From NCBI GenBank assembly GCA_016213435.1, contig JACRAL010000074.1, positions 1 to 45,422 on the forward strand: a stretch of 45,422 bases of DNA, read 5' to 3'. Below, piece after piece: positions 5,434 through 30,971 of the stretch. This DNA is from Bacteroidota bacterium (GTDB lineage Bacteria > Bacteroidota > Bacteroidia > Palsa-948). A program made the position numbers and the translations under genes. Each line of letters opens with the position of its first letter. Within the stretch, counting starts at the first letter, position 1. Below the pieces are notes generated by a model. It was not told the origin of the DNA, ran no database searches, and saw nothing but the letters and a program-made list of their open reading frames with translations.

Positions 5434-6864
5434 ATGCCTACTATTAAAAAATCTAAAATCGGACTTTTTGGAATAGGGTTAGATGCCTATTGGAATCAAT
5501 TCCCTGATTTACTGGACAGACTGCTTGGCTATCAAAGTCTGATCAAAAAAAATCTTGAAAAGGAACATTCGCTGGTTGTGGATGCAGGAATGGTAGATAA
5601 TGTTGAAAAAGCTAAAGCCGCTGCTGATCTGTTCAGGAGGGAAGATGTGGATATGATTTTTCTATATGTATCTACGTATGCACTTTCTTCCACCGTTCTG
5701 CCTGTTGTGCAGAAAATAAAAGTGCCCGTAATTATATTAAACCTGCAACCCACCAAAGCTATAGATTACAAATGGTTTAACGGACTTGGTGACCGGGGAT
5801 TGATGACGGGCGAGTGGCTTGCCAATTGTCAGGCATGTTCTGTTCCTGAAATTGCTTCCGTATTCAATCGTGCCGGTATTTCTTTTAATCTCATCACCGG
5901 ATTTCTGGATGATAAAGATGCATGGGGTGAAATTCATGAATGGATAGAAGCCTCGGATGTTGTCAAGACGATGCAAAACAACCGTTTTGGCATTTTAGGA
6001 AATTATTATGGTGGAATGCTGGATGTGTATTCCGATCTGACGCTGCAATCCGTTTCATTCGGCACACATATTGAAATTATTGAGATGTGTGAACTGAAAA
6101 AATTAAGAGATAGAGTAACGCAAGAGGAAATAGAAAATAAAATTAAACAAATCCATTCTGAGTTTGAAGTTATGCCCGATTGCGATAAGGAAGAAATTAA
6201 ACGTGCCGCAAAAACTTCCTGTGCCTTGGATAAATTGGTTGTAGCAAAACAAATCGGTTCGCTTGCATATTATTACGAAGGAGTGGAAGGAAATGAATAT
6301 CAGGATATCGTTACATCTATCATCACGGGAAATTCCATTTTAACGGCACAGCATGTACCTGTGGCGGGAGAAATGGAAGTGAAGAATGTACAAGCAATGA
6401 AAATCATGGACTGCCTGAATGCTGGCGGTTCTTTTTCTGAATTCTACGGAATGGATTTCGCAGAAGATATTGTATTAATGGGACACGATGGTCCCGGGCA
6501 TCTCGCCATTGCCGAAGGGAAACCCCGATTGAAACCATTGGGCGTGTATCATGGAAAACCCGGAAAAGGATTATCGGTGGAGATGAAAGTGAAATACGGT
6601 CATATCACTGCACTTTCTGTTGTGCAAACTCCCGAAGGAAAACTGAAACTGTTAGTAGCCGAAGGAAAGTCAGTGCCGGGACCCATTCTTGAAATCGGCA
6701 ATACAAACAGCCGTTATAAGTTTTCAATAGGCGTTAAAAGTTTTATTAACAACTGGAGCAAAGAAGGTCCTTCGCATCACTGCGCAATAGGAATTGGTCA
6801 TGTAGCTTCTAAAATCAAGAAGATAGGGTCGCTTTTAAATATGGAAGTGATTCAGGTCTGCTGA
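5434..6864 (+). CDS. L-arabinose/L-fucose isomerase-family protein
   Basis: The 476-residue product belongs to the AraA/FucI-like isomerase group. It opens with KIGLFGIGLDAYWNQFP, has a long first Rossmann-like domain (VDMIFLYVSTYA, VPVIILNLQP), then a segment with GHDGPGHLAIAEGKP and a C-terminal end SHHCAIGIGHVASKI that supplies metal-binding His residues. Proteins of this kind interconvert aldoses and ketoses in the cytoplasm, but the substrate is uncertain. Its place beside the rhamnose genes suggests a deoxysugar or a related pentose. It is transcribed toward the FGGY kinase gene, and the two stop ends overlap by 13 bp on opposite strands. A candidate promoter is at 5298-5328. Confidence 0.8.
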   Translation: MPTIKKSKIGLFGIGLDAYWNQFPDLLDRLLGYQSLIKKNLEKEHSLVVDAGMVDNVEKAKAAADLFRREDVDMIFLYVSTYALSSTVLPVVQKIKVPVIILNLQPTKAIDYKWFNGLGDRGLMTGEWLANCQACSVPEIASVFNRAGISFNLITGFLDDKDAWGEIHEWIEASDVVKTMQNNRFGILGNYYGGMLDVYSDLTLQSVSFGTHIEIIEMCELKKLRDRVTQEEIENKIKQIHSEFEVMPDCDKEEIKRAAKTSCALDKLVVAKQIGSLAYYYEGVEGNEYQDIVTSIITGNSILTAQHVPVAGEMEVKNVQAMKIMDCLNAGGSFSEFYGMDFAEDIVLMGHDGPGHLAIAEGKPRLKPLGVYHGKPGKGLSVEMKVKYGHITALSVVQTPEGKLKLLVAEGKSVPGPILEIGNTNSRYKFSIGVKSFINNWSKEGPSHHCAIGIGHVASKIKKIGSLLNMEVIQVC

Positions 6865-8177
6865 CTCCCATATTCTTTTAACTCAATAACATTCTCTGGA
6901 AGAGATCCTGAATTCCAATGATTATGAATTGCCATTGCCGCTCCTAAAGCAGTTGCCTGCGCTGCTGATGCGGCAAATACTTTTATGGATGAATACTCCT
7001 GAGACAATAAGTTCATGTAAATAATATTTTTACTAAAACCTCCATCAACAAAAATTTGTTTTACTGAAGTATCTGTCAAAACAAGATCGGTAGATTTTTT
7101 TTGCAGTGTGATAATATCCAACATTAATTGATGATAAGCAACTTCGTAAGATGAGCACTCCGGCAAATCAAGTTTTTTCTTTTTCAGTGTAGCAATAATT
7201 TGAGAATCGTACTGAACTGTTTTGTAATAATCCAAATCCGTATTGAAGTGTGCAGCCAACCGTTTGATCTGTGTTTCATGTTCGTTGCCTGCAAATAATC
7301 GGGATGCTTTTACCGGTTTTCCTTCGTAACTTAAATAACACAGACAATCCTTTTTTAATTCTTCAGCAGTAAGCGGATTTTGATTGAAAGGATTTAAACT
7401 GATGCACCAGGTTCCGGTGGAAATAAGAATAAAAGGATCTTGAAACTTTTTGAGATAAGGAATTAATGCCGAAGAGCTATCATGCAAACCCGCTCCGACA
7501 GAAAAAAATTCTTCTGAAAGAGAAACTTCCATTACTTTATCAGAAGGAAAAATCGGAGCCAGTTTTTCATCCACTCCTTCCTTAACAAGCCATGAATGGT
7601 ATTTGTGTTGAGTGAAATCCCATAAGTTTGTGTGGCAACCAATGCTCGTAATATCTGAATACATTTTTCCGGTTATTAGAAAGCTTAAATATTGTGGCAG
7701 ATGCAAGGAATATCTTATGGATTTAAATAAATCAGACTTCTCATATTTCAAGCGAAATAAAACCATTCCTGAATTCAAACTTCCCAAAGCAGGAGAAGCG
7801 GTGGTCTTGCAAAAATCTAATTCACCTCCATAAGTATCGTAGAATTTTTTCTTTAGGTCTTCAGAATATGGCTTGAGATAATTATAGAGTGGAGAAATCA
7901 CTTTTCCGTTTTTATCAAGATGCACAAAGCTGGCACCGTAAGCAGAAAAATTAATTGCCTTGACATTAAAGTCTTTGTCTGCAAGTAATTTATTTAAAGA
8001 ATTTCGAATCCATTGCGAGAGTTGTTCCACATCTTCGCAGGGATCTCCGTCTTCGTCTTTTACTTCAGGGAACTGAGTGATTTCTTCATGCACGATCCTG
8101 TACTGCTCGTCAAAAAGAAATAATTTTTTATTGGTTTTCCCAACGTCAAAAATAGCGATGACAGAAGTAGATTTCAT
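6852..8177 (-). CDS. FGGY-family carbohydrate kinase, probably L-rhamnulokinase
   Basis: The 441-residue product has the FGGY kinase architecture: an N-terminal phosphate-binding loop (IAIFDVGKTNKKLFLFD), a middle segment GCHTNLWDF near the sugar site, and a C-terminal ATPase half with LISTGTWCISLNP and IFVDGGFSKNIIYMNLL. It should phosphorylate L-rhamnulose to L-rhamnulose 1-phosphate, the usual step between rhamnose isomerase and the aldolase. Its start codon lies one base after the stop of the isomerase gene at 8179-9453, which strongly suggests co-translation. Its stop overlaps the 3' end of the convergent isomerase gene by 13 bp. Confidence 0.85.
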   Translation of the reverse strand: MKSTSVIAIFDVGKTNKKLFLFDEQYRIVHEEITQFPEVKDEDGDPCEDVEQLSQWIRNSLNKLLADKDFNVKAINFSAYGASFVHLDKNGKVISPLYNYLKPYSEDLKKKFYDTYGGELDFCKTTASPALGSLNSGMVLFRLKYEKSDLFKSIRYSLHLPQYLSFLITGKMYSDITSIGCHTNLWDFTQHKYHSWLVKEGVDEKLAPIFPSDKVMEVSLSEEFFSVGAGLHDSSSALIPYLKKFQDPFILISTGTWCISLNPFNQNPLTAEELKKDCLCYLSYEGKPVKASRLFAGNEHETQIKRLAAHFNTDLDYYKTVQYDSQIIATLKKKKLDLPECSSYEVAYHQLMLDIITLQKKSTDLVLTDTSVKQIFVDGGFSKNIIYMNLLSQEYSSIKVFAASAAQATALGAAMAIHNHWNSGSLPENVIELKEYGSQQT

Positions 8178-8178
8178 C

Positions 8179-9453
8179 TTATAAACCCGTAGCTGTGGAA
8201 TGACTGCCTCTTTCTTTCACCAGTTTTTCCCTGATCTTCAGGTCGCGGAATAATTGCATCGGATTCAATGCTGCTCCCGAACGAAGTCGTGCTTCTGCGA
8301 GCAAAGGACGAACATCTGTGCGAAAAGCATGCTGCAATATTTCCTGGCACTTTACCGTATCATTTTCATTTTGCGCAGTCCCTAAAGCTTTTCTGTCAAC
8401 CAGCAACGCTTGCGCATAAGCAATTTTAATTGCCTCGACAGATTGCAATAAATCTTCCAGCGGATCCTTTACGTTGTGCGAAGCATCTATCATCCAGCCG
8501 AGATCAGAATTGTGATCCATTTTTTTCGCATCCATACCTTCAACGAGTTCATTGAAAATTAAAAACAACTGGTAAGGTTTCATGCTTCCTGCTGTGAGAT
8601 CATCGTCTCCATACTTTGAATCGTTAAAATGAAAGCCGCCTAATTTCCCTTCCATCAATAACAAGGATACGATCTGTTCAATGTTTGCATTCGGAAGATG
8701 GTGCCCAAGATCAACTAAGGTGTATGCTTTTTTACCAAGCTTGCTCGCGTACATATAGGATTGTCCCCAATCGCCCACGCTCATGCTGTAAAAATTCGGT
8801 TCGAATGCTTTGTACTCCACAAACATTTTCCAGTCTGCCGGCAATGCAGAATAAATTTCCTGCAGACTTTCCAATGTATTCTGAAACGCTTTTCGGAAAT
8901 TTAATTGTCCGGGGAAACAAGAACCATCCGCAAGCCAGACGGTAAGCGCTTTCGATCCCAGCGCAACGCCTTGTTTGATCACTTCGATGTTATGCTGAAT
9001 GGCTTGCTTGCGCACTTTAGCATCCACATGCTGAAGCGAACCGAACTTGTAACTGTGCGGCTGTCCTTTCTGATCCTGAAATGTGTTGGAGTTGATTGCA
9101 TCAAAATGCAGGTCGTGTTTTGCAGCAAGTTCTTTTATTGCTTTTGTATTTTTCGGAATATCCCATGGAATATGCAGGGAGATGGAATTTCCGGAGCGGT
9201 TGAGTGCATGCAATAAACCCACGTCCTCTATTTTTTCTTCCAGCGTTCCCGGTTCACCGCCAATAGAAAATCGCCCAAAGCGTGTGCCACCTGCACCCAG
9301 AGCCCAGCTAGGGATTGCGATCTGAAATTTTTCCAACTTCTGAATTATTTTTTCAGATGTGTTTTCCTGTGAAGAAATAAAAGAGATTTTTTTCTTGTGC
9401 TCCGCTAACAGGCGGTGATTGTGTTCTTCAATTTGATTTTTTTTTAGCTGCAT
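8179..9453 (-). CDS. rhaI: L-rhamnose isomerase (RhaI type)
   Basis: The 424-residue product matches the Pseudomonas/Rhizobium-type L-rhamnose isomerase, a TIM-barrel metalloenzyme converting L-rhamnose to L-rhamnulose, and not the E. coli RhaA type. Recognisable parts are IPSWALGAGGTRFGRF at residues ~48-63, VWLADGSCFPGQ, FVEYKAFEPNFYS, LVDLGHHLPNANIE and GGFHFNDSKYGDDDLTAGS, which together hold the metal ligands (Glu, Asp, His) and substrate-binding residues. The length is normal for the family. It is followed after one base by the kinase gene and preceded, across a palindromic repeat, by rhaM. Confidence 0.92.
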   Translation of the reverse strand: MQLKKNQIEEHNHRLLAEHKKKISFISSQENTSEKIIQKLEKFQIAIPSWALGAGGTRFGRFSIGGEPGTLEEKIEDVGLLHALNRSGNSISLHIPWDIPKNTKAIKELAAKHDLHFDAINSNTFQDQKGQPHSYKFGSLQHVDAKVRKQAIQHNIEVIKQGVALGSKALTVWLADGSCFPGQLNFRKAFQNTLESLQEIYSALPADWKMFVEYKAFEPNFYSMSVGDWGQSYMYASKLGKKAYTLVDLGHHLPNANIEQIVSLLLMEGKLGGFHFNDSKYGDDDLTAGSMKPYQLFLIFNELVEGMDAKKMDHNSDLGWMIDASHNVKDPLEDLLQSVEAIKIAYAQALLVDRKALGTAQNENDTVKCQEILQHAFRTDVRPLLAEARLRSGAALNPMQLFRDLKIREKLVKERGSHSTATGL

Positions 9454-9591: not shown

Positions 9592-9906
9592 TTATGGTAA
9601 ATAAAAAACTTCCTGCAAGGGCACCGACACCGGTGAATGATCTGCATTGCTTTCCATAATATCACCCATGTATTTCCACCAGCGCTGCATCACGGGATTG
9701 TTTGGCAGATTATCCAGCGCTTTTTGATCTTCTGTGTTCATTACACCAAAAAGTGTATTTGTTTTTTCATCTAAGAAAATGGAATAATCGGAAATGCCTG
9801 TAGATTTTAACAGCGCTGCTAACTCGGACCAAATTTCATCGTGGCGTTTTTTATACTCGGCAGCACGACCGGAAAAAAGTTTCATGGTGAAGGCGATACG
9901 TGTCAT
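9592..9906 (-). CDS. rhaM: L-rhamnose mutarotase
   Basis: The 104-residue product has full family length. It interconverts the alpha and beta anomers of L-rhamnose in the cytoplasm. Visible hallmarks are [26 protein letters not shown] at the start, with the catalytic-region His in KKRHDEIW, then DYSIFLDEKTNTLFG and the C-terminal WWKYMGDIM with the paired Trp residues. The gene sits 21 bp after a small antitoxin-like gene. The first ~86 bp of rhaM occur twice more upstream (10695-10780 and 11565-11650), so this copy appears to have had its 5' end supplied or duplicated when extra genes entered the operon. Confidence 0.93.
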   Translation of the reverse strand: MTRIAFTMKLFSGRAAEYKKRHDEIWSELAALLKSTGISDYSIFLDEKTNTLFGVMNTEDQKALDNLPNNPVMQRWWKYMGDIMESNADHSPVSVPLQEVFYLP

Positions 9907-9990
9907 GGTCTGGAAATGAGGATGAAATTATTTTCTGTTGTATTTGGCTTTGGGTTCAGCTACCATTGATGGGAATGGGTCAATGTTATA
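9821..9990. repeat. 170-bp direct repeat, copy A (partner-gene 3' end + spacer + rhaM 5' end)
   Basis: This block aligns without gaps to 10695-10864. It contains the last 63 bp of the small gene at 9928-10131, a 21-bp spacer and the first 86 bp of rhaM. In the 63-bp portion I count 8 differences between copies. The equal lengths of all three parts in both copies argue for duplication or repeated insertion by homologous exchange, not for chance. Confidence 0.88.
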
Positions 9991-10131
9991 ATTAGTTCTC
10001 TTCTTTTTTCTAGATTTTGCTTTGCTCTTAAGTTCTTTAATAAACCTGCTTAAAGCAAGTTCTTCAATTTTTGTCAATGGTTTGGGATCAACAAAAATTT
10101 CCAAATCGTCTGTTGTTTTTTTCTTTTTCAT
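9928..10131 (-). CDS. Small basic protein, candidate antitoxin/partner of the GNAT-like protein
   Basis: The 67-residue product is strongly basic (many KK and KKRK runs) and soluble. Its N-terminal part (MKKKKTTDDLEIFVDPKPLT...) is unlike that of the other small protein at 10802-11014, but the C-terminal tail FPSMVAEPKAKY is nearly identical in both. The start overlaps the stop of the upstream gene by four bases (ATGA), the classic arrangement for coupled toxin-antitoxin or partner genes. It ends 21 bp before rhaM. The function is not known; antitoxin is inferred from size, charge and coupling. Confidence 0.65.
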   Translation of the reverse strand: MKKKKTTDDLEIFVDPKPLTKIEELALSRFIKELKSKAKSRKKKRTNYNIDPFPSMVAEPKAKYNRK

Positions 10132-10655
10132 TGTTTAAAATATTTGTCAAGTAGTTTTAATGCTGAGTCGGTCTGAATAACCAGCAGATGTCCGCCAAAA
10201 TGAATGGCACCGAGTGATTTAATGTAATAGTCTATCAACCTGGTTTTTGCCCGAAAAGAAACGAAACCGTCCCTACCGTGTTTAAACGAAAGCTTGCACG
10301 CAAATGCCATTAAATTTCCGGCAACACCGGCATAAATTTTATTTCTCCCAATATTGAAAGGAGCATTTTCAAGCAGATGTACATAAACATTATCAGGAGT
10401 CACAGACAAACTTATTAGTCCCTGAACAATTTCCACATTATTAGTAATTGTAAGTTTATACACATCGCGGTCGGGAAATAAAAATTCTGATTTCCAATCA
10501 AAATTCCATCCACGCTTTTTAGTGATGTGTTTCAGTTCAACACGAGTTAATGGTAAAACATCTGTCGGAAAACTGTCGCCAGTTATGACATTTTCAATAG
10601 AATTTGTCAGCTTATCTACCTCAAAGTCGAGAAGTTGTTTTTGCGCCTTTTTCAC
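10128..10655 (-). CDS. GNAT-like protein, candidate toxin of a cassette in the rha operon
   Basis: The 175-residue product begins with GTG at 10655. Its first part contains VLPLTRVELKHITKKRGWNFDW. Its second half (IYAGVAGNLMAFACKLSFKHGRDGFVSF ... LIDYYIKSLGA) resembles the acetyl-CoA-binding core and C-terminal strands of GNAT acetyltransferases. No transmembrane segment is visible. The GTG overlaps the TGA of the truncated rhaM leader frame (GTGA), and the 3' end overlaps the small basic gene by four bases, so three frames are translationally linked. Acetyltransferase toxins such as TacT-type proteins are a possible comparison; the catalytic activity and toxicity are inferred, not shown. Confidence 0.6.
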   Translation of the reverse strand: MKKAQKQLLDFEVDKLTNSIENVITGDSFPTDVLPLTRVELKHITKKRGWNFDWKSEFLFPDRDVYKLTITNNVEIVQGLISLSVTPDNVYVHLLENAPFNIGRNKIYAGVAGNLMAFACKLSFKHGRDGFVSFRAKTRLIDYYIKSLGAIHFGGHLLVIQTDSALKLLDKYFKQ

Positions 10656-10780
10656 TTGTTAAAGGTAAGGAAAATTGTCGACATTTTTTTTGATAATTCC
10701 AGCCGGATCTCATCGTGGCGCTTTTTATACTCAGCCACAGAGCCGGAAAAAAGTTTCATGGTGAAGGCGATGCGGGGCAT
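10652..10780 (-). pseudogene. Truncated rhaM 5' copy (42-residue remnant)
   Basis: From ATG at 10780 the frame reads [13 protein letters not shown]...EYKKRHDEI, clearly the start of L-rhamnose mutarotase. After about codon 30 it changes to unrelated residues and stops at 10652-10654. The stop codon overlaps the GTG start of the following gene, so the remnant may act as a translated leader for it. The missing two thirds include the second half of the active site, so it cannot be a working mutarotase. Confidence 0.85.
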
Positions 10781-10864
10781 AAATGGAAAATTAAGAGGAA
10801 GTTATTTTTTGCCGTATTTGGCTTTGGGTTCAGCAACCATTGAAGGAAATGCGTCAATGTTGTA
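10695..10864. repeat. 170-bp direct repeat, copy B (partner-gene 3' end + spacer + rhaM 5' end)
   Basis: Second copy of the block at 9821-9990: 86 bp of rhaM 5' sequence, a 21-bp spacer, and the last 63 bp of the small gene at 10802-11014. The two copies begin 874 bp apart, so recombination between them would remove exactly one two-gene cassette and leave one intact junction. Confidence 0.88.
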
Positions 10865-11014
10865 AGTGTTTTTTTTCTTTTTTGCCCCAATGCCGTATTT
10901 CTTACGTATCGCGCGTAAGCGCTTTTCCCGCAGCTCCGGATTTTTTTCGTATTCCTTTTGCAGTTTTGCGCGTATGGAACGCATCATTTTAACTGCATCA
11001 AATTTCTTTTTCAT
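10802..11014 (-). CDS. Small basic antitoxin-like partner of the PIN protein
   Basis: The 70-residue product begins MKKKFDAVKMMRSIRAKLQKEYEKNPELREKRL, an amphipathic helical pattern like that of antitoxins that accompany PIN-domain toxins in Bacteroidetes (typically FDAVxxMRxxR). The C-terminal tail FPSMVAEPKAKY is nearly identical to the tail of the unrelated small protein at 9928-10131 and lies inside the 170-bp repeat, so it may have been appended by the recombination that built the array. It starts three bases after the PIN gene stop. Toxin-first order is the reverse of most VapBC operons but is common for this subgroup. Confidence 0.75.
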   Translation of the reverse strand: MKKKFDAVKMMRSIRAKLQKEYEKNPELREKRLRAIRKKYGIGAKKKKNTYNIDAFPSMVAEPKAKYGKK

Positions 11015-11017
11015 AAT

Positions 11018-11482
11018 TTATATGTGGATAATATCTCTCGGGTTTCTTATTTCTAAAATTGAATAGCCATTTTTCAAATTTACTGCATTGTATTTTCGTA
11101 TTCGCTCAAGATTAACAATATGTTTGAAATTCCAACTCGCCAGCACATCCACTTTGTTTATTGTGGCCATTGCAATATGCAATGCGTCTTCATGAAACTT
11201 TTTTGTAATGGCTCCCTCTTTAATATATTTATCTGCAAGTTCATCTACCTCCTTATCCTTTGCAATGAATTCTATATTTTTCTTTGGGGTAGTTTCAATA
11301 TGCAGGCGCACTTCTGCCCGTGCTAATCTCAGTTCATCTATTGCTATATCAGAAATAACTGCAATTTTATTTCCTGTTTTAAACTCCTCAAATAATTTCA
11401 CAGACCATTCTTTAAATTCATCGTCAAAACAACCTCCAATGACCGATGTGTCAATATAAATTCTTTGTACAGGTTGGCTCAT
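11018..11482 (-). CDS. PIN-domain protein, probable VapC-like ribonuclease toxin
   Basis: The 154-residue product has the PIN nuclease pattern: a first acidic residue in IYIDTSVIGG near the N-terminus, a conserved Glu in ISDIAIDELRLA, an Asp in EDALHIAMATI and the C-terminal LASWNFKHIVN. These residues bind the divalent metal in PIN ribonucleases, which as toxins cleave tRNA or rRNA in the cytoplasm. The following small gene (three bases away) fits as the antitoxin. It lies inside the rhamnose operon between two copies of the rhaM 5' end, so it would be transcribed when the sugar genes are on. Confidence 0.83.
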   Translation of the reverse strand: MSQPVQRIYIDTSVIGGCFDDEFKEWSVKLFEEFKTGNKIAVISDIAIDELRLARAEVRLHIETTPKKNIEFIAKDKEVDELADKYIKEGAITKKFHEDALHIAMATINKVDVLASWNFKHIVNLERIRKYNAVNLKNGYSILEIRNPRDIIHI

Positions 11483-11515
11483 TTGGCAAAGTTATAAAAA
11501 GAAAGTCCATTAAGT

Positions 11516-11650
11516 TTATAGAAGAGTAGAAGATATTTTTTCTGAATATCTCACGAGCTCCGACAACTCCGGCCAGATATCATCGTGGCGCTTTTTATAC
11601 TCGGCAGTACGGCCGGGGAAAAGTTTCATGGTGAAGGCGATGCGGGGCAT
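11516..11650 (-). pseudogene. Second truncated rhaM 5' copy (44-residue remnant)
   Basis: From ATG at 11650 the frame reads [33 protein letters not shown], matching mutarotase through about codon 33 before diverging and stopping at 11516-11518. In the 86 bp shared with copy B (10695-10780) I count 12 differences. Upstream of this copy there is no antitoxin tail, so it may represent the original start of rhaM in the operon, left behind when the first cassette entered. Confidence 0.85.
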
Positions 11651-11697: not shown

Positions 11698-12135
11698 TTA
11701 TCTATCTACTAAGTTCAGCCCGACTTGCGACAATGCACTTGTCGTATGTTTTTCATCTTTGAGATCAATTAATTCCTTTATTGTATTTGCTTTTCTTATT
11801 GATTCAGTTGAAACTTTAAGTTTACTTATTTTAAATCTTCGACTTGCATATTTGTCTTTTCGTCTATTTGTTTTTATTACAACTGTCTTGCCATTGAATT
11901 TTACTTTTGTAATAATTGGTGCTCCTTCCTTGGTATATCTATAAATTTCAAATTTGTCTTTCATATTTTTATTAAGGTTATCCTTAAATAATATAAATCG
12001 CGATTCATTTGTGATTCCCATTAGATTTATAATTACACGGTTTTTGTTTTCTCCTTTACTGTTCAGAGGAATCTGTGAGAAAAGTTCAGTAACTATTAAA
12101 AGCAGTATTAAGGTTGGTAAGTTTTTCATAATCAC
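11698..12135 (-). CDS. Small exported protein of unknown function
   Basis: The 145-residue product starts with a signal peptide ([19 protein letters not shown]) followed by a basic, beta-rich mature region with [18 protein letters not shown]. There is a second possible start codon two residues in (12129). I do not recognise a family. It lies in the rhamnose series between the aldolase/dehydrogenase gene (54 bp upstream) and the truncated rhaM copy, on the same strand, and its local base composition is AT-rich compared with the rha genes, so it could be another inserted gene. Confidence 0.55.
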
Positions 12136-12189: not shown

Positions 12190-14304
12190 TTACCTCACAA
12201 ACGCAGCCGCCACACCTCCATCCACATTTAAAACATTGCCGGTAGATTTATTGAGCAGTCCGCTTACAAAAACAAAGCAGGCATTGGCAATATCTTCGGG
12301 CAAAATAATTTTGTTGAGGAGCGTGCGCTTGGCGTAATACGCGGGCAGCTCTTCCACGGTGATGCCGTATGCTTTTGCACGGCCTTCTGCCCAGTCGCCT
12401 TTCCATATCTCGCTGCCTGCGATCACCGCATCGGGGTTTACCACGTTCACACGTATGTTATCTTTTCCTAATTCAGCCGCATTGAGACGGCTCAGGTGCA
12501 GTTGTGCTGCCTTGGCAGAACCGTAAGCAGCATTGTTGGGTCCTGCAATCACGGCATTTTTACTTACAATATTTAAAACATCTCCGCCCATTGCCTGTTT
12601 GCGCATAATTTCTATTCCTGCCTGTGTAATTAGGAATTGTCCCTTCACCAATACATCGTACAACAGATCCCAGTCCTTTTCGGTGTGCTCTTCAATGGGT
12701 TTTGAAATGGAAAGCCCCGCACAATTTACAATAATATCTAGGCCTCCAAATTGCAAAGCAGAACTTGCAATCGCTTGCAAAATATTTTCTTTATTCATTA
12801 CATCCGCTGCCGTAGCCACGCAGGCATCTTTTCCATATTGGGAAGTAAAATCATCGCATGTTGTTTCTAATCTTCCTGCATCGTTATCGCTGATGACTAC
12901 GCAAGCGCCTTCATCCATAAATTTTTTGGCGATGGCTTTTCCAATGCCGCCTGCACCGCCTGTTACAAAAGCAATTTTTCCGGACAAAGGTTTTGCTTTT
13001 GGCATGCGCTGCAGCTTAGCTTCTTCCAGCAGCCAGTATTCAATATTAAATGCTTCCTGTCGCGGAAGAGAAGTGTATTCTGAAATGTCTTCAGCGCCTT
13101 TCATCACGTTGATGGCGTTGATGTAAAATTCTGCTGCCACGCGTGCGGTCTGTTTGTCTTTTGCGAATGTAAACATGCCAACTCCGGGCCACAAGATTAC
13201 AACGGGATTTGCATCGCGCATCGCAGGACTGTCTGTGTGCTTGCAGCTTTCGTAATATGTTTTATAGTCCTTGCGGTATTTTTCAAAAGCAGGAAGCAGT
13301 TTTTCTTTTACCGAATTTATATCGGTGAGATTTTCTTCGGCAGAAAGCGAAAGCACAAGTGGAGATATTTTCGTTCGCAGAAAATGATCCGGACAACTGG
13401 TACCCAGCGGTGCAAGGCGCTCGGAATCTATTGAGTTGATGAACTCCAGCACTCTTTCGTCATCGGTGAAATTTCCGATTTTATTGGATTGGCTTGAGCA
13501 GAAGCCGCGGAGCAGAGGAGCAATAGAGGCCGCTTGCTGCAAGCGTTTTTCTTTATCCAGACTTTTTGATTTTGCTCCGCCAAAGACTGCTTGCTTCTTT
13601 CCGAAATTTTCTTCAAGATAAGCTGCACTCTTTTGAATTACTTCCAGCGTATTGAGATAACATTCGTACGAAGTGTTTCCCCAGGTAAATAATCCGTGAG
13701 AGCCAAGTATAAGTCCGCGAAGCGATGGATTTTTATTTACCGCTTCCTGAAGTTTTAGTCCGAGATCAAAACCCGGACGCTGCCAGCCCAGCCATCCTAT
13801 TGTTCCTTTGAATAATTCTGTGGTTATTTTTTCTCCGTCTTTTGAAGCGGCAATCGCAATGACCGCATCCGGATGAAGGTGATCAATGTGTTTGAAGGGA
13901 AGAAAACCATGGAGTGGTGTATCAATTGAAGGCGCTTTCGAGTTAAGATCAAAAATGCAGTGATTGAACAGCGCGACCATTTCATCTTCGAACTTGATTC
14001 CTTTGTAAACATTTTTTAAGCTGCGCAAGCGTTCCACATACAAGGCGGACAAACCATTTTTCTTGAGCGTTCCCAGATCTCCACCGGAACCTTTGATCCA
14101 CATCACTTCGGTTTCTGCTCCTGTCAGAGGATCTTTTGCATTTGCTTTGCAGGAAGTGTTGCCGCCACCGTAATTTGTCAAGCGCAGATCAGCGCCCAAA
14201 AGATTGGAACGATAAATTAATAATGCCACTTCATCCTTGGCGATGCCGGCCGCATGTTTTTCGGCCCATAAATAGCTGGCGTGTTTGAAATCGGTTGTTT
14301 TCAT
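12190..14304 (-). CDS. Bifunctional L-rhamnulose-1-phosphate aldolase / L-lactaldehyde dehydrogenase-type SDR protein
   Basis: The 704-residue product is a natural fusion. Residues 1 to ~410 are a class II aldolase-like domain with GGGNTSCKA, the zinc-site region HGFLPFKHIDHLHPDAV and GSHGLFTWG. Residues ~435-704 are a short-chain dehydrogenase: NAD-binding GKIAFVTGGAGGIGKAIA, the NCAGLS strand, and the catalytic Tyr-X3-Lys in AAYGSAKAAQ. The pair cleaves L-rhamnulose 1-phosphate to dihydroxyacetone phosphate and L-lactaldehyde and oxidises or reduces the aldehyde. The length is that expected for the fused family found in rhamnose clusters. It follows rhaT after a 105-bp gap filled by a palindromic repeat. 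Confidence 0.9.
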   Translation of the reverse strand: MKTTDFKHASYLWAEKHAAGIAKDEVALLIYRSNLLGADLRLTNYGGGNTSCKANAKDPLTGAETEVMWIKGSGGDLGTLKKNGLSALYVERLRSLKNVYKGIKFEDEMVALFNHCIFDLNSKAPSIDTPLHGFLPFKHIDHLHPDAVIAIAASKDGEKITTELFKGTIGWLGWQRPGFDLGLKLQEAVNKNPSLRGLILGSHGLFTWGNTSYECYLNTLEVIQKSAAYLEENFGKKQAVFGGAKSKSLDKEKRLQQAASIAPLLRGFCSSQSNKIGNFTDDERVLEFINSIDSERLAPLGTSCPDHFLRTKISPLVLSLSAEENLTDINSVKEKLLPAFEKYRKDYKTYYESCKHTDSPAMRDANPVVILWPGVGMFTFAKDKQTARVAAEFYINAINVMKGAEDISEYTSLPRQEAFNIEYWLLEEAKLQRMPKAKPLSGKIAFVTGGAGGIGKAIAKKFMDEGACVVISDNDAGRLETTCDDFTSQYGKDACVATAADVMNKENILQAIASSALQFGGLDIIVNCAGLSISKPIEEHTEKDWDLLYDVLVKGQFLITQAGIEIMRKQAMGGDVLNIVSKNAVIAGPNNAAYGSAKAAQLHLSRLNAAELGKDNIRVNVVNPDAVIAGSEIWKGDWAEGRAKAYGITVEELPAYYAKRTLLNKIILPEDIANACFVFVSGLLNKSTGNVLNVDGGVAAAFVR

Positions 14305-26656: not shown

Positions 26657-27228
26657 TGTTTTTTTATTAAAGTAGATCATATACGCCAAACATCAGACGC
26701 AGACTTGCTAAACAAATAGGTTCAATCTAATGTTTCATCGCTTATTGCAGATAATTTTAGGATTAAGTTTTTTTCGTACTTGCAGTGATGAATAAATTCG
26801 GTGATTTCTGTCTGAATGGTTTCCATAATTACTGGTTTTAAGGAATGGATTTTGAACTTTATCGCAATGCTAAAAAGAATAAACTACCTTAAGGATAAGA
26901 AGGGAAGCGGTCTTTCAGGATTTTATGTATCAGGTTAATACCCCTCCATCTATATAGGGAAACGGATTTCCTTGTGAACGGATACAAGCCATTGACAAAA
27001 ATCAGGACATTCGATATACTCAAATCATTACAAATTAATATCAGAACTGTTGTCCCGATTTATCGGGATCATCCTGAAGAAATTTTAGGATTGAGACGAA
27101 CAACAGTGGGTATCTCTGTTCAGCCATACTTTACTTTTTTCCCGCGCCATTGTATGCTGAACCTGCGCGTACTAGTATATGCGCGTAAAGGTCCCGCTGG
27201 ATTCGTCTCCAGCGGGTCTTTGCGTAAT
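26657..27228. other. Upstream region of the integrase gene, no gene seen
   Basis: About 570 bp without a supportable gene. It holds a perfect palindrome, TCCCGAT-TT-ATCGGGA, at 27053-27068; a direct repeat of TGCGCGTA at 27164-27171 and 27180-27187; and a strong hairpin, CCCGCTGG / CCAGCGGG, at 27193-27216 that ends 12 bp before the integrase start codon. The open frame from 26974 that runs into the integrase does not resemble the family before residue 86, so I treat it as non-coding leader. Confidence 0.6.
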
Positions 27229-28107
27229 ATGCATGAAAAAATAAGAGAGTATTTAGAATGGAAGGGGACTTATGCCCACAGGGCAAGCATCAATTATAAG
27301 ATTTGGCTTAATCGCTTTGTCGAGCAATGCGGAGACAAAGCCATCGAGGACTACAGCTCAACCGATGTGGTCAAATACCACCGTTGGTTGGAAGTGCATT
27401 ATGGATCGTATTGTATTCAGTATGCGATGATAATCATGAAAAACTTCTTTCAGTTCTATAAATTAAGAAATGTAAACTGTCTTTCACCGGAACTGATACG
27501 GCTGCCACGCATCCATCAGAAATCCCATCGGGCAATAACAGAAGGGGAGTACGGTAAAATCATCAAAGGAATTCCGACCAATGAATTTCTTCCGCTCAGA
27601 GATTCCATAATGATACGCCTGATGTGGGACACAGGCGTGCGCGTATCGGAACTCTGCGACATAGACATCTCGCAGATAAATGAAAATAAAACCAGTACTA
27701 TTATTTCAACAAAGAAAAATGGCAAGAAACGAATTATTGTTTGGTCTGAAGAAACACATAAACTCCTGATGAAATTTATGGGCATACGCATGGAACTGGA
27801 AAAACAAACCCATGCATCCGCATTATTCGTAGGATGGAAAGGCAACAAAGGATGGAGCGCACGACTTACCCCAAGAACCGTAGAGCGCAGACTTAAACAT
27901 TATGTGAACTTGGTGGGCATAAAGGAGAAAATCACCCCTCACAGCTTCCGGCACGGTTGGGCGCACCACAGGCGGGACCAAAACGCTCCATTGGCGTTTA
28001 TACAAAGGGGACTGGGTCACAATAGCCCTGTATCTACCTTCATCTACGAGCAGTATGACGATAAGGAGTTTGTCCAAAATGCCCGGGGTTATCTGAAAGC
28101 TGCCTAA
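27229..28107 (+). CDS. Tyrosine recombinase/integrase
   Basis: Taking ATG at 27229, the product is 292 residues, the usual length for phage-type integrases with an N-terminal SAM-like DNA-binding domain (~1-90, EYLEWKGTYAHRASINYKIWLNRFVEQCG). The catalytic residues are all visible: R138 in GVRVSELC, H238 and R241 in HSFRHGW, H264 in LGHNS and the nucleophile Y273 in FIYEQY. It should cut and rejoin DNA at specific sites for integration, excision or inversion. The in-frame ATG at 26974 gives an 85-residue extension without family resemblance. A hairpin just before the start may restrain its expression. Confidence 0.9.
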   Translation: MHEKIREYLEWKGTYAHRASINYKIWLNRFVEQCGDKAIEDYSSTDVVKYHRWLEVHYGSYCIQYAMIIMKNFFQFYKLRNVNCLSPELIRLPRIHQKSHRAITEGEYGKIIKGIPTNEFLPLRDSIMIRLMWDTGVRVSELCDIDISQINENKTSTIISTKKNGKKRIIVWSEETHKLLMKFMGIRMELEKQTHASALFVGWKGNKGWSARLTPRTVERRLKHYVNLVGIKEKITPHSFRHGWAHHRRDQNAPLAFIQRGLGHNSPVSTFIYEQYDDKEFVQNARGYLKAA

Positions 28108-29396: not shown

Positions 29397-30131
29397 TCAG
29401 AACAAAACAAGTTGTGGAACTTTTTGTTCTGTTGTTTTCTCTTCTGATTTTTTCGAGAAAGAGTTTCGCTGCATCTGCCAAAGCAAGGACTGTTCTTTCT
29501 TTTCGATCTTAAAAATTCCAAGCGGAAAGAATGAAATCCGGTACCCGAACCTGAAATCATCCGGTGCAAGCGCATCAGCGCAGGCCACCTCGCCTCCAAG
29601 ACCGTTCAGAAATAGATTTATTGCGGTCATCTTCACGCATACTGGATCAACATCAATTCCGTAGTAGCAATTCGGGTGTTTGCTTCTCTTCCCATAAGCT
29701 AAGAGCATCCTTCCGCTTCCGCAGGTCGGGTCGCATATTTTCATGGAGCGGGATTCTTCCTGTTCATCCAGTGTCATTTCAGCCATCATCGAGCAAACAT
29801 GAAAGGGTGTAAAGAACTGTCCGTTTCTGCCATTAGTAAGCTCCTGCTGAAAGAATTCACCGAGAAGATCATTGCCTCCTGAATCATCTTTTTTTTCTTC
29901 CATATATGAAACCATTTCTGCTAGCAGTTGAGGGAAGTATTCCAACTTGCCACTGGCTTTATACGGTTCAATGATCTGCATATATTCTTCTTCGTAATAC
30001 GAAAGTCCTGTATCAAACTTTCGGGTAAATGCACAGATGCACATGGTTAGAAAATCCTCAAACGCTTTGGCGTAATTACTGCCGTAAGCTGCTTTCTCGA
30101 ACAGGGTTTTAAAAGAACTAATTGTTTTCAT
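29397..30131 (-). CDS. N6-adenine methyltransferase-like protein without a catalytic NPPY/F motif (copy 1)
   Basis: The 244-residue product resembles the HsdM/N6_Mtase fold. A helical N-terminal half precedes GRNGQFFTPFHVCSMMAEM (~101-119) and the SAM-binding motif I, DPTCGSGRMLLA, at 134-145; YYGIDVDPVCVKMTAINLFLNG then corresponds to motif II. The protein ends about 60 residues later at GYRISFFPLGIFKIEKKEQS without the NPPY/F motif IV needed for methyl transfer. It should bind SAM but probably does not methylate adenine on its own. A paralogue with the same layout lies 124 bp upstream on the same strand. Confidence 0.78.
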   Translation of the reverse strand: MKTISSFKTLFEKAAYGSNYAKAFEDFLTMCICAFTRKFDTGLSYYEEEYMQIIEPYKASGKLEYFPQLLAEMVSYMEEKKDDSGGNDLLGEFFQQELTNGRNGQFFTPFHVCSMMAEMTLDEQEESRSMKICDPTCGSGRMLLAYGKRSKHPNCYYGIDVDPVCVKMTAINLFLNGLGGEVACADALAPDDFRFGYRISFFPLGIFKIEKKEQSLLWQMQRNSFSKKSEEKTTEQKVPQLVLF

Positions 30132-30254: not shown

Positions 30255-30971
30255 TCAATAAAAGAACAAACGCTTTTTAGGTTGTTCCTTTAAAAAATCT
30301 CTCAGAAACAATATCTCTGATTCTTCCTTGTCTTCAAACTTGAAAATACCTTTAGGGTCATCGTGATCGGGATGGTGGTTGATCCTGTATCCTATGCTGA
30401 AGTTTTCAAGACCGGAATCCTGAGCGCAGACAACCTCTCCGTTTAAATTGTGCATGAACATATTTACTGCAGCAAGTTTTACCAGAAGGGGTGTGGTGTC
30501 TATTCCGTAATACGAGTATCCCTCCCTGCTGTTTTGCTCAAAAGCAAGAAGCATTCTTCCGGTTCCTACAGAAGTGTCCAATATGCAGAGAGCACCGTCT
30601 GCATCATTGCTGAATAGCTGTGTCATCTCAAGGCATAGCGGGAAAGGTGAGAGAATAGTCTTATTCGTTTCAGGAGTAATCGCTGTCATGTAGAACTCGC
30701 CTATCATATCCGGAAGTAAGATTCTATCCAGAACCAAGCGAAAGAAGATAGAAGGCAGCCTGATAAGATCATCATAGGTGCCTGACTGCTTGTATGCTTC
30801 GCTGATACGGGCAAAGTCGTTTTCATAGTACATCCCATCTGTATGCGGGTCTTTGGTAACATGGTACATACAGAGGGTAAGAAAATCATCAAATGTCCGG
30901 AACGCTTCTTTTCCTTTGGAGGCATTTTCAAATACGCTGACAAAGGAGCTTAAAGAATGGAGTGTTTTCAT
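30255..30971 (-). CDS. Degenerate N6-methyltransferase-like protein (copy 2)
   Basis: The 238-residue product is a paralogue of the downstream gene, with shared starts (MKT...SF...FE.A..G...), shared YYE motif and shared end (GYRI...GIFK.E.KE.S). The SAM motif has decayed to DTSVGTGRMLLA at 132-143, the FFTPF motif to ILSPF, and motif IV is missing as in copy 1. It is less likely than copy 1 to bind SAM. Conservation of the overall fold without the catalytic residues suggests a structural or regulatory role, perhaps as a partner of copy 1. Confidence 0.72.
   Translation of the reverse strand: MKTLHSLSSFVSVFENASKGKEAFRTFDDFLTLCMYHVTKDPHTDGMYYENDFARISEAYKQSGTYDDLIRLPSIFFRLVLDRILLPDMIGEFYMTAITPETNKTILSPFPLCLEMTQLFSNDADGALCILDTSVGTGRMLLAFEQNSREGYSYYGIDTTPLLVKLAAVNMFMHNLNGEVVCAQDSGLENFSIGYRINHHPDHDDPKGIFKFEDKEESEILFLRDFLKEQPKKRLFFY

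Follow-up and report, generated by a model that had tools for sequence, protein, structure and literature searches.

The window, the whole stretch of 45,422 nucleotides of a Bacteroidota contig that was analysed here, carries an array of small genes at the start of rhaM on its minus strand. In the direction of transcription, a remnant of the rhaM start is followed by a PIN pair, a second remnant, a GNAT-like pair and the intact gene. Upstream lies rhaD (12190–14304, minus strand, as are all features of the array), encoding a bifunctional rhamnulose-1-phosphate aldolase/dehydrogenase (NCBIfam NF006191, 1334.6 bits) and found directly 5' of rhaM in many relatives. Three rhaM starts are present, at 11650, 10780 and 9906. 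Copy 1 (11561–11650) is the remnant 5' of the PIN cassette, and copy 2 (10691–10780) is the remnant between the cassettes. Copy 3 begins the only full-length rhaM, the L-rhamnose mutarotase gene at 9592–9906 (PF05336, 110.9 bits; TIGR02625, 127.9 bits). The PIN cassette as inserted is the stretch between two rhaM-start repeats, with approximate bounds of 10793–11560. It encodes a PIN-domain toxin-like protein of 154 aa (11018–11482) and a small antitoxin-like partner of 70 aa (10802–11014) with the tail TYNIDAFPSMVAEPKAKYGKK. The motif match TAACTTTG (11487–11494; consensus TAnnTTTG) stands immediately 5' of the PIN start codon. The GNAT-like cassette as inserted, approximately 10010–10690, is bounded by two copies of a repeat of ~190 bp. 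It holds a toxin candidate of 175 aa with a GTG start (10128–10655) and a small partner gene of 67 aa (9928–10131) that ends in the repeated tail. The upstream repeat copy (10691–10883) consists of the PIN-antitoxin tail, a spacer and the rhaM start, and the downstream copy (9817–10009) of the antitoxin tail, a spacer and the start of intact rhaM.

Sequence comparison bore out the layout given in the original prediction, which had described two toxin-like cassettes, each bounded by a copy of the rhaM start. The gapless 86-nt alignment claimed for the three starts holds, with 12 mismatches between copies 1 and 2, 12 between copies 1 and 3 and 17 between copies 2 and 3. Likewise, the 170-bp repeat reported at the inner junctions is real. 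It extends over 193 nt at 79% without gaps, or over 180 alignment columns at 82%, and takes in the 3'-terminal ~63 bp of the small genes together with the spacer and the rhaM start. This repeat scored 191, compared with 32 or less in 30 shuffles, and the outer pair scored 117. Direct repeats at rhaM measure ~90–110 bp and ~190 bp. The anatomy also agrees with the proposal that toxin-antitoxin-like cassettes sit in the 5' end of rhaM and that a second copy of the start keeps the gene complete. As had been noted, no recombinase is visible in the inserts: only toxin-like and partner genes were seen between the repeats of the window.

The assignment of the two toxin-like genes was examined by profile and structure searches. 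For the PIN protein, the label is better supported by the family than by the window protein itself, which remained below the Pfam cut-off (E 0.0094). All nine scanned family members matched PF01850 at E ≤ 1 (best 1e-5), and D11, E50, D99 and D112, which we take to be the PIN active-site acids, are invariant across nine sequences. The GNAT label is softer than first stated as well. Neither the Pfam scan nor the PDB profile search gave a match for this protein, and its single-sequence model was poor (pLDDT 38.5). Foldseek with this poor model returned nothing at E ≤ 0.001; the top rows were chains of mycobacterial isocitrate lyase 2, followed by acetyltransferases including TacT3, KacT and AtaT (E 0.015–0.13). 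The label is carried by a weak fold similarity. Homologs at E ≤ 1e-30 were found in 57 of 395 genomes of the class, its own genome counted. Distant homologs are followed by proteins of ~160–180 aa, one with a weak HTH match (E 0.017). Both small partner proteins of the window were without a Pfam match. In one scan of viral contigs for each of the two proteins, four close relatives of the PIN protein and none of the GNAT-like protein were detected.

Of 145 PIN and GNAT-like genes, 140 were followed by a co-directional ORF of 40–190 aa whose start lay −60 to +160 nt relative to the end of the toxin gene, by a loose criterion with no control set. The promoter motif TAnnTTTG occurred within 60 nt upstream of 43/68 PIN and 26/77 GNAT-like cassettes, and of 39/297 control ORFs and 114/4000 random positions. 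Judged by sequence, the pairs have the two-gene operon structure of a type II toxin-antitoxin system, in which the toxin role is a candidate one. They resemble the GNAT-Xre and PIN toxin-antitoxin systems, as far as these are presented in the cited part of Makarova et al. 2009 (PMC2701414), in being two-gene modules. In contrast to the GNAT-Xre systems described there, the GNAT-side partner in the window is a 67-aa protein without a Pfam match, and the toxin is only a candidate.

We then asked how often such cassettes are bordered by direct repeats. Eight of the 145 cassettes were left out for short flanks, and the window's own two cassettes were counted in. Repeat listings of the same places, rhaM loci and control loci were left out by identifier, and duplicates were removed by sequence. 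Significant direct repeats (score ≥50) bounded 41 of 137 PIN and GNAT-like cassettes. As a control, gene-anchored ordinary ORFs were scored, with the antitoxin represented by a constant 190 nt; 2/138 reached 45 and 0/138 reached 50. Random 480-bp pseudo-cassettes, taken in windows slightly different from those of the survey, reached 50 in 16/2000 cases. The enrichment over these two controls gave Fisher p values of 1e-14 and 6e-39, respectively. In 24 of the 41 cassettes the downstream repeat copy starts −30 to +60 nt from the antitoxin stop (~7 expected). No flanking repeat at score ≥50 was found for 96/137 cassettes, so that either not all cassettes follow this mode or the majority of repeats have been lost to decay. 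In part of the 41, what borders the cassette is a dispersed, multi-copy or low-complexity repeat and not a target duplication (L064, L131, L030 and probably L133); L064 was rejected as a target duplication, its repeat being present three times on its contig. In 12 of the 41, at ten loci, the repeat is the end of a neighbouring host gene: rhaM, a pdhB-like gene, hutU, thiL, nrdA, kdsA, ispD, a cation efflux gene, a luciferase-like gene and a sugar transferase gene. Repeat lengths ranged from 29 to 271 columns among the 41 and from 32 to 188 at the gene-end loci other than rhaM. Cassettes of the same families were found at many different genes in related bacteria, and the junctions inspected by eye revealed no common end sequence. 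Since the host genes differ and no common end was seen, the process does not look site-specific.

Two of these loci have an uninserted counterpart in which the repeat is single. In G050, hutU is followed directly by a gene whose start resembles that of the gene lying behind the hutU remnant of G088, and four more congeners have single hutU ends with other neighbours. The pdhB-like gene is single in six congeners. In G006, where it is occupied, the remnant retains the congeners' TACATTTG and ATG, and the intact copy has a different upstream sequence and, as read, a GTG start. The two copies are identical at 57 of 60 positions, with the differences at one end. Stacks were observed at rhaM, thiL and nrdA. 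Three copies at thiL bound a GNAT-like pair and a ParE-type pair, and four copies of the nrdA 3' end surround three inserts, two of which are PIN pairs. Random insertion alone does not explain the stacking of unlike cassettes at one gene end.

The anatomy, the repeats and their excess over controls, the recurrence of the arrangement at other genes and two empty sites are direct observations, and from them the origin of the array was reconstructed. We consider it likely that two toxin-antitoxin cassettes inserted successively at the rhaM start, each with a target duplication. Small independent cassettes of promoter, toxin and antitoxin, ~0.7 kb each, would have entered one after the other, the first duplicating ~90–110 bp and the second ~190 bp. 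Because the target is duplicated each time, a complete rhaM would survive downstream, and the displaced start would be left upstream as a remnant. The PIN cassette would have come first. The GNAT-like cassette would then have entered the 3' end of the PIN-side antitoxin gene, and the duplicated stretch would thereby have fused the PIN antitoxin tail to the GNAT-side antitoxin. The 170-bp repeat, which the original prediction had not recognized as such, is best read as the target duplication of this second insertion. It probably also duplicated the C-terminal tail of the first antitoxin, so that two different antitoxins now end alike. Addiction may prevent loss of the cassettes by recombination between the repeats. 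Chances are about even that the duplication formed at the insertion itself, by a staggered break or template switching. Gain and loss of cassettes by homologous exchange between the repeats is possible; it would agree with the stacks at thiL and nrdA and with nrdA copies that have diverged mostly at third positions.

The alternative of homologous (Campbell-type) integration has to be weighed against this reading. Here an excised circle with one gene-end copy, or a donor fragment, would recombine into the same gene of a relative, and the recipient's end would become a remnant beside the donor allele. We consider the differences between copies by codon position (first/second/third), at loci where one copy lies in a long ORF. 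Relative to the intact end, nearly all changes in the nrdA copies fall at third positions (0/0/6, 1/0/5 and 0/0/6), and this is also true of the remnants among themselves (0/0/9, 1/0/7 and 1/0/8). By our own reading of the letters, remnants 3 and 4 carry synonymous changes only (6/6 each). The luciferase-like copies gave 1/0/7, and rhaM copies 1 and 3 gave 4/0/8 over 86 nt, without a second-position change. Duplication followed by decay is expected to affect all positions, and the third-position bias at nrdA and rhaM thus points to imported alleles. Stacks would fit repeated events at one homologous end. Against this, nrdA remnant 2 has, again as we read it, one stop and one missense change among 6 differences, and no third-position bias was seen at kdsA (3/0/1), cation efflux (2/1/1), sugar transferase (3/2/0) or hutU (2/2/4). 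By a hand estimate with all loci pooled, the bias is no clear argument against simple decay. Over the final ~50 bp, the two pdhB-like copies show no difference. Homologous integration further predicts the same host gene beside cassettes across genomes, but only 13 similar pairs between loci (E ≤ 1e-12) were found among 255 flanking ORFs. One congeneric pair accounts for two of them, and the sole strong match across genera (76%, 706 bits) links a GNAT-like cassette with a PIN cassette. A founding insertion would still be required. Overall, we regard homologous integration as a tentative alternative, well below an even chance. The spread of a single cassette from a gene to the same gene across distant species is not supported by these 13 pairs.

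A circle model similar to that of homologous integration was drawn for transposed Arabidopsis genes (Woodhouse et al. 2010, PMC2869330), whose flanking direct repeats frequently correspond to the target site. As described in the cited part of that work, these genes share with the array direct repeats and movement without a recognized transposon; in contrast, the host is a eukaryote and the cargo is not toxin-antitoxin.

Tandem duplication of one cassette with later replacement of the toxin part, and no insertion, is improbable. In its favour, a duplicated unit could have left its ends as the antitoxin tail, spacer and rhaM start that recur at the two inner junctions. However, there is no apparent relation between the PIN and the GNAT-like part, each family occurs on its own elsewhere, and copy 1, upstream of the PIN pair, is without tail or spacer.

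Slightly less probable still is the action in trans of a tyrosine recombinase with rhaM as attachment site. ICEs of the SXT/R391 type enter the 5' end of prfC and supply a replacement 5' end, the old one being left as a remnant. The original prediction had drawn this comparison, and the anatomy fits, as here, too, an insert in a 5' end comes with a new 5' end to replace it. At 26974–28107, 15 kb from the array, the window carries a tyrosine recombinase gene (PF00589). The targeting does not fit. We inspected the best 80 of 554 other rhaM loci, of which one was without upstream sequence and some fell short of the full 4 kb of flank. None of these 80 had a duplicated start or a PIN or GNAT-like cassette, and an SXT-like hotspot at rhaM was rejected on this basis. 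In 38 of them rhaD lies 5–300 nt upstream of rhaM with no insert, and rhaD–rhaM without insert was also seen in G057. None of six congeners, one only 78% complete, had a rhaM match at E ≤ 1e-8; among close relatives no empty rhaM site was found, and the uninserted comparison consists of distant single-copy loci among these best 80. Unlike in SXT/R391, no integrase was seen in the inserts of the window, and these measure 0.7 kb instead of ~100 kb. The same families use ten host genes instead of one fixed attachment gene, unrelated genes at both 5' and 3' ends, with the variable repeat lengths given above. Site-specific integration of this type is therefore disfavoured.

Least probable is an integron-like array with the repeats as attachment sites: chromosomal integrons are known to carry toxin-antitoxin cassettes and the G219 locus has five copies of a hairpin repeat (up to 137 bp) around different genes, but at rhaM, and likewise at the other loci with gene-end repeats, each locus has its own repeat, formed by the coding end of an intact gene and, at rhaM, not of attC type, and a simple motif search, a weak test, found no paired attC-like core sites in two multi-copy repeats (G219 and G052).

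Within the genus, the antitoxin tail AEPKxKY is common to the partners encoded beside PIN, GNAT-like and DUF4160 genes and to one further small protein. Across the class, a hand count gave 25 matches in 21 of 395 genomes, compared with 7 for the reversed pattern. The six matches within the genus are all C-termini of small proteins. For the 19 outside it, three were placed in related proteins, two DUF6364-like, one a C-terminus read as HsdS-like without a family search. The tail as a pure by-product of stacking was rejected: this would explain the window but not the congener G006, where a PIN-side and a GNAT-side antitoxin from two different loci both end in the tail, and where the 11.4 and 8.7 kb examined contained no second copy. 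It is conceivable, though rather unlikely, that several unrelated small toxin-antitoxin families are minimal mobile units without recombinase, which insert at housekeeping-gene ends, preserve the gene by bringing or copying its end, stack and rewrite antitoxin C-termini. AEPKxKY may then serve all of them as one handle, such as one recognized by a single protease, and so tie their stabilities together.

Insertion with long target duplication has been described for restriction-modification genes (Nobusato et al. 2000; Furuta et al. 2010; via PMC3874152, PMC3031569 and PMC1643837). To the extent covered by these accounts, the array shares with it target-derived direct repeats of ~100 bp and variable length, addiction-type cargo without a carrier element, and a form able to amplify by recombination between the repeats. 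In contrast, the cargo here consists of PIN, GNAT-like and ParE-type toxin-antitoxin pairs and not of restriction-modification genes, the repeats are host-gene ends at ten loci, some with stacked cassettes, and one antitoxin probably received a changed end through the duplication. As restriction-modification cargo is absent, we say that the array works like the long-target-duplication process, with a different cargo.

The finding bears on an old question, namely by what route chromosomal toxin-antitoxin pairs pass from one genome to another when no carrier is involved. Gene-end repeats at the cassette borders provide a readable signature, the frequency of which can be measured with controls. 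Congeners supply both empty and filled sites, and stacks may record the order of arrival. The question thereby becomes testable through genome surveys and marked-cassette experiments. A mode known for restriction-modification genes would in this way be extended to the other large class of addiction modules.

In the window, rhaD (12190-14304) and rhaM (9592-9906) belong to a rhamnose operon on the minus strand. The operon also includes genes related to rhamnose isomerase (8179-9453) and, weakly, to rhamnulokinase (6852-8177), both scoring under their family cut-offs. The interval between rhaD and rhaM holds a DUF4362 gene and two remnants of the rhaM start (displaced duplicates of this gene end), the first followed by a PIN/small-gene pair and the second by a GNAT-like/small-gene pair. 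All three rhaM starts aligned without gaps, with pairwise differences of 12, 12 and 17 sites over the first 86 nt, and the inner repeat of the array consists of the antitoxin tail, a spacer and the rhaM start. Thus the stacked cassettes of the original prediction, each bounded by a copy of the rhaM start, are real. The DUF4362 gene (11698-12135) further separates rhaD from the first rhaM copy, and a repeat flanking it is absent from the repeat list of the window. A tyrosine recombinase gene (26974-28107; PF00589, E 3.5e-29) is located 15 kb away from the array, and two adjacent short N-6 DNA methylase proteins (PF02384) are encoded in tandem at 29397-30131 and 30255-30971. Elsewhere in the same genome (3.70 Mb, 216 contigs) a truncated GNAT-like end and its small partner gene were found (L033, G000:C86:43877-43984).

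The same operon in genome G057 has rhaM following rhaD after 29 nt. Named rhaM loci were compared using the best 80 of 554 matches, mostly Bacteroidota such as Mucilaginibacter and Chitinophagaceae. In 38 of these 80, rhaD was located 5-300 nt upstream of rhaM. None of the 80 showed an additional rhaM start or a cassette of the PIN/GNAT type within the sequence available, which extended to at most 4 kb either side, the upstream sequence being too short at one locus. The six congeners, one of them 78% complete, gave no rhaM match at E <= 1e-8, and therefore a direct empty site of the array could not be seen.

Relatives of the PIN protein (E <= 1e-25) were present in 50 and of the GNAT-like protein (E <= 1e-30) in 57 of 395 genomes of the class, own genome counted. 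We gathered 145 cassettes (68 PIN and 77 GNAT-like), of which 137 had sufficient flank. The repeat score was the best local alignment of the 500 nt before the toxin gene with the stretch from 60 nt past the toxin to 500 nt past the antitoxin. A score of at least 50 was obtained for 19 of 62 PIN and 22 of 75 GNAT-like cassettes. As controls, 20 stretches of 20 kb from ten of the surveyed genomes were used. No ORF of 120-260 aa reached 50 (0/138) and two reached 45; 16 of 2000 random intervals, scored with windows slightly different from those of the survey, reached 50, and a single stretch contributed 13 of these. The downstream repeat copy began -30 to +60 nt from the antitoxin stop in 24 of the 41 repeat-bounded cassettes (about 7 expected).

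These 41 are not in every case target duplications. L064 was rejected, its repeat occurring three times on the same contig, as were L131 and L030, where five and four repeat copies bound other genes. The repeat of L133 looks of low complexity. At L352, a 137-bp hairpin repeat in five full or partial copies bounds different genes, one a GNAT-like pair, and looks like a repeat-bounded gene array. At L338, copies of a 271-bp repeat bound a DUF2442-like gene and a GNAT-like pair, the repeat overlapping short HTH-like ORFs (labels assigned by eye).

At ten loci with 12 PIN or GNAT-like cassettes, all within the 41, the two copies were the intact end of a host gene and its remnant; the other 29 cassettes were without assignable host gene. 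Host genes were rhaM and nrdA (two cassettes each), thiL, hutU, kdsA, ispD, a luciferase-like, a cation-efflux and a sugar-transferase gene, and a transketolase-domain gene read as pdhB-like. The duplicated end is the 5' end at rhaM, the pdhB-like and the cation-efflux gene, and the 3' end at the remaining ones. The pattern is more general than first thought. In two genera, a GNAT-like (L031) and a PIN cassette (L068) lie 5 and 41 nt downstream of the same gene of about 466 aa, 76% identical.

Stacking was also observed elsewhere. In G050, the thiL 3' end is present in three copies, which bound two pairs, one GNAT-like and one whose toxin is of the ParE family (PF05016, E 6.9e-12); the nearer remnant is less diverged (68/71 identical) than the other (60/65). 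The nrdA 3' end occurs in four copies around three inserts in G034, two of them PIN pairs, and the start of the cation-efflux gene is present three times in G085. Thus, rhaM is not unique.

Filled and empty sites could be compared at two genes. In G088, hutU is followed by a GNAT-like pair, a 59-nt remnant of the hutU 3' end and a gene starting MGVCKYCGQKAGF. In the congener G050, hutU is directly followed by a gene starting MGVCKFCGQKAGF, and in four further congeners by other genes. The pdhB-like gene has one start only, an ATG, in six congeners, with TACATTTG upstream in five of them. In G006, the remnant retains TACATTTG and the ATG, and the intact gene behind the antitoxin starts with GTG (read by eye).

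Insert, repeat, empty site and stacking are observed, and the chemistry of the step is a proposal. The target would be duplicated while the cassette enters. In line with this, the pdhB-like copies are nearly identical (57/60 duplicated positions), repeat lengths vary, inspection of the junctions by eye found no common end sequence, and neighbour genes mostly differ (255 flanking ORFs gave 13 similar pairs at E <= 1e-12). In a second reading, the cassette would bring along the gene end as a donor allele and integrate through homology. It is favored by the nrdA copies, whose differences are nearly confined to third codon positions: remnants 3 and 4 show only synonymous changes against the intact end (6/6 each), although the 6 changes of remnant 2 include one stop and one missense (letters read by eye). 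Likewise, rhaM copies 1 and 3 are without second-position change, and the luciferase-like copies differ at 1, 0 and 7 first, second and third positions. However, a third-position bias is absent in the kdsA, cation-efflux, sugar-transferase and hutU copies.

The last 20 residues of the two window antitoxins are nearly alike. This tail was found in 5 of 140 partner ORFs, one imperfect (the window and G006 have two each, G002 one). In the simplest order, the PIN cassette would have come first and the GNAT-like cassette would then have entered the PIN antitoxin gene at its 3' end, where a target duplication of about 190 bp would hand the tail to the GNAT-side antitoxin. In G006, however, the tail is common to two families at separate loci and a second copy was not found nearby; therefore stacking alone is insufficient to explain it. 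The motif AEPKxKY occurs at six places in seven genomes of the genus, always at the C-terminus of a small protein, and the reversed pattern gave no match in these genomes. Carriers are the partners of two PIN and two GNAT-like proteins, a DUF2442 protein adjoining a DUF4160 protein (a toxin-antitoxin-like pair), and a weakly DUF5647-like protein beside which a toxin gene was not found. The small proteins are of four kinds, three of them partnering toxin-like genes (window 9928-9990 and 10802-10864; L281, L282, L284, L285). In a further set (L309, L310, L311), the motif is internal in two DUF6364-like proteins from genomes of another family, the DUF6364 match resting on partial sequence of the first; in a 433-aa protein read as HsdS-like, the motif lies close to the C-terminus. 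Conceivably, the tail serves as a protease or chaperone handle.

Mruk and Kobayashi (PMC3874152) state that certain restriction-modification systems are able to insert with target duplications that are long, of variable length and on the order of 100 bp; the Helicobacter pylori case is described in PMC1643837. Makarova et al. (PMC2701414) predicted GNAT-Xre modules and reported that a toxin-antitoxin-like module had recently inserted at several places, in one case inside an operon; neither 'direct repeat' nor 'target duplication' appears as a term in the available text of that paper. The literature searched, which did not cover Furuta 2010 or Nobusato 2000, gave, among the matches listed, no report of toxin-antitoxin pairs inserting with long target duplication. 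The array is probably a variant of the known insertion with long target duplication. Target duplication may found such cassettes and homologous integration may spread them among close relatives, both acting in turn.
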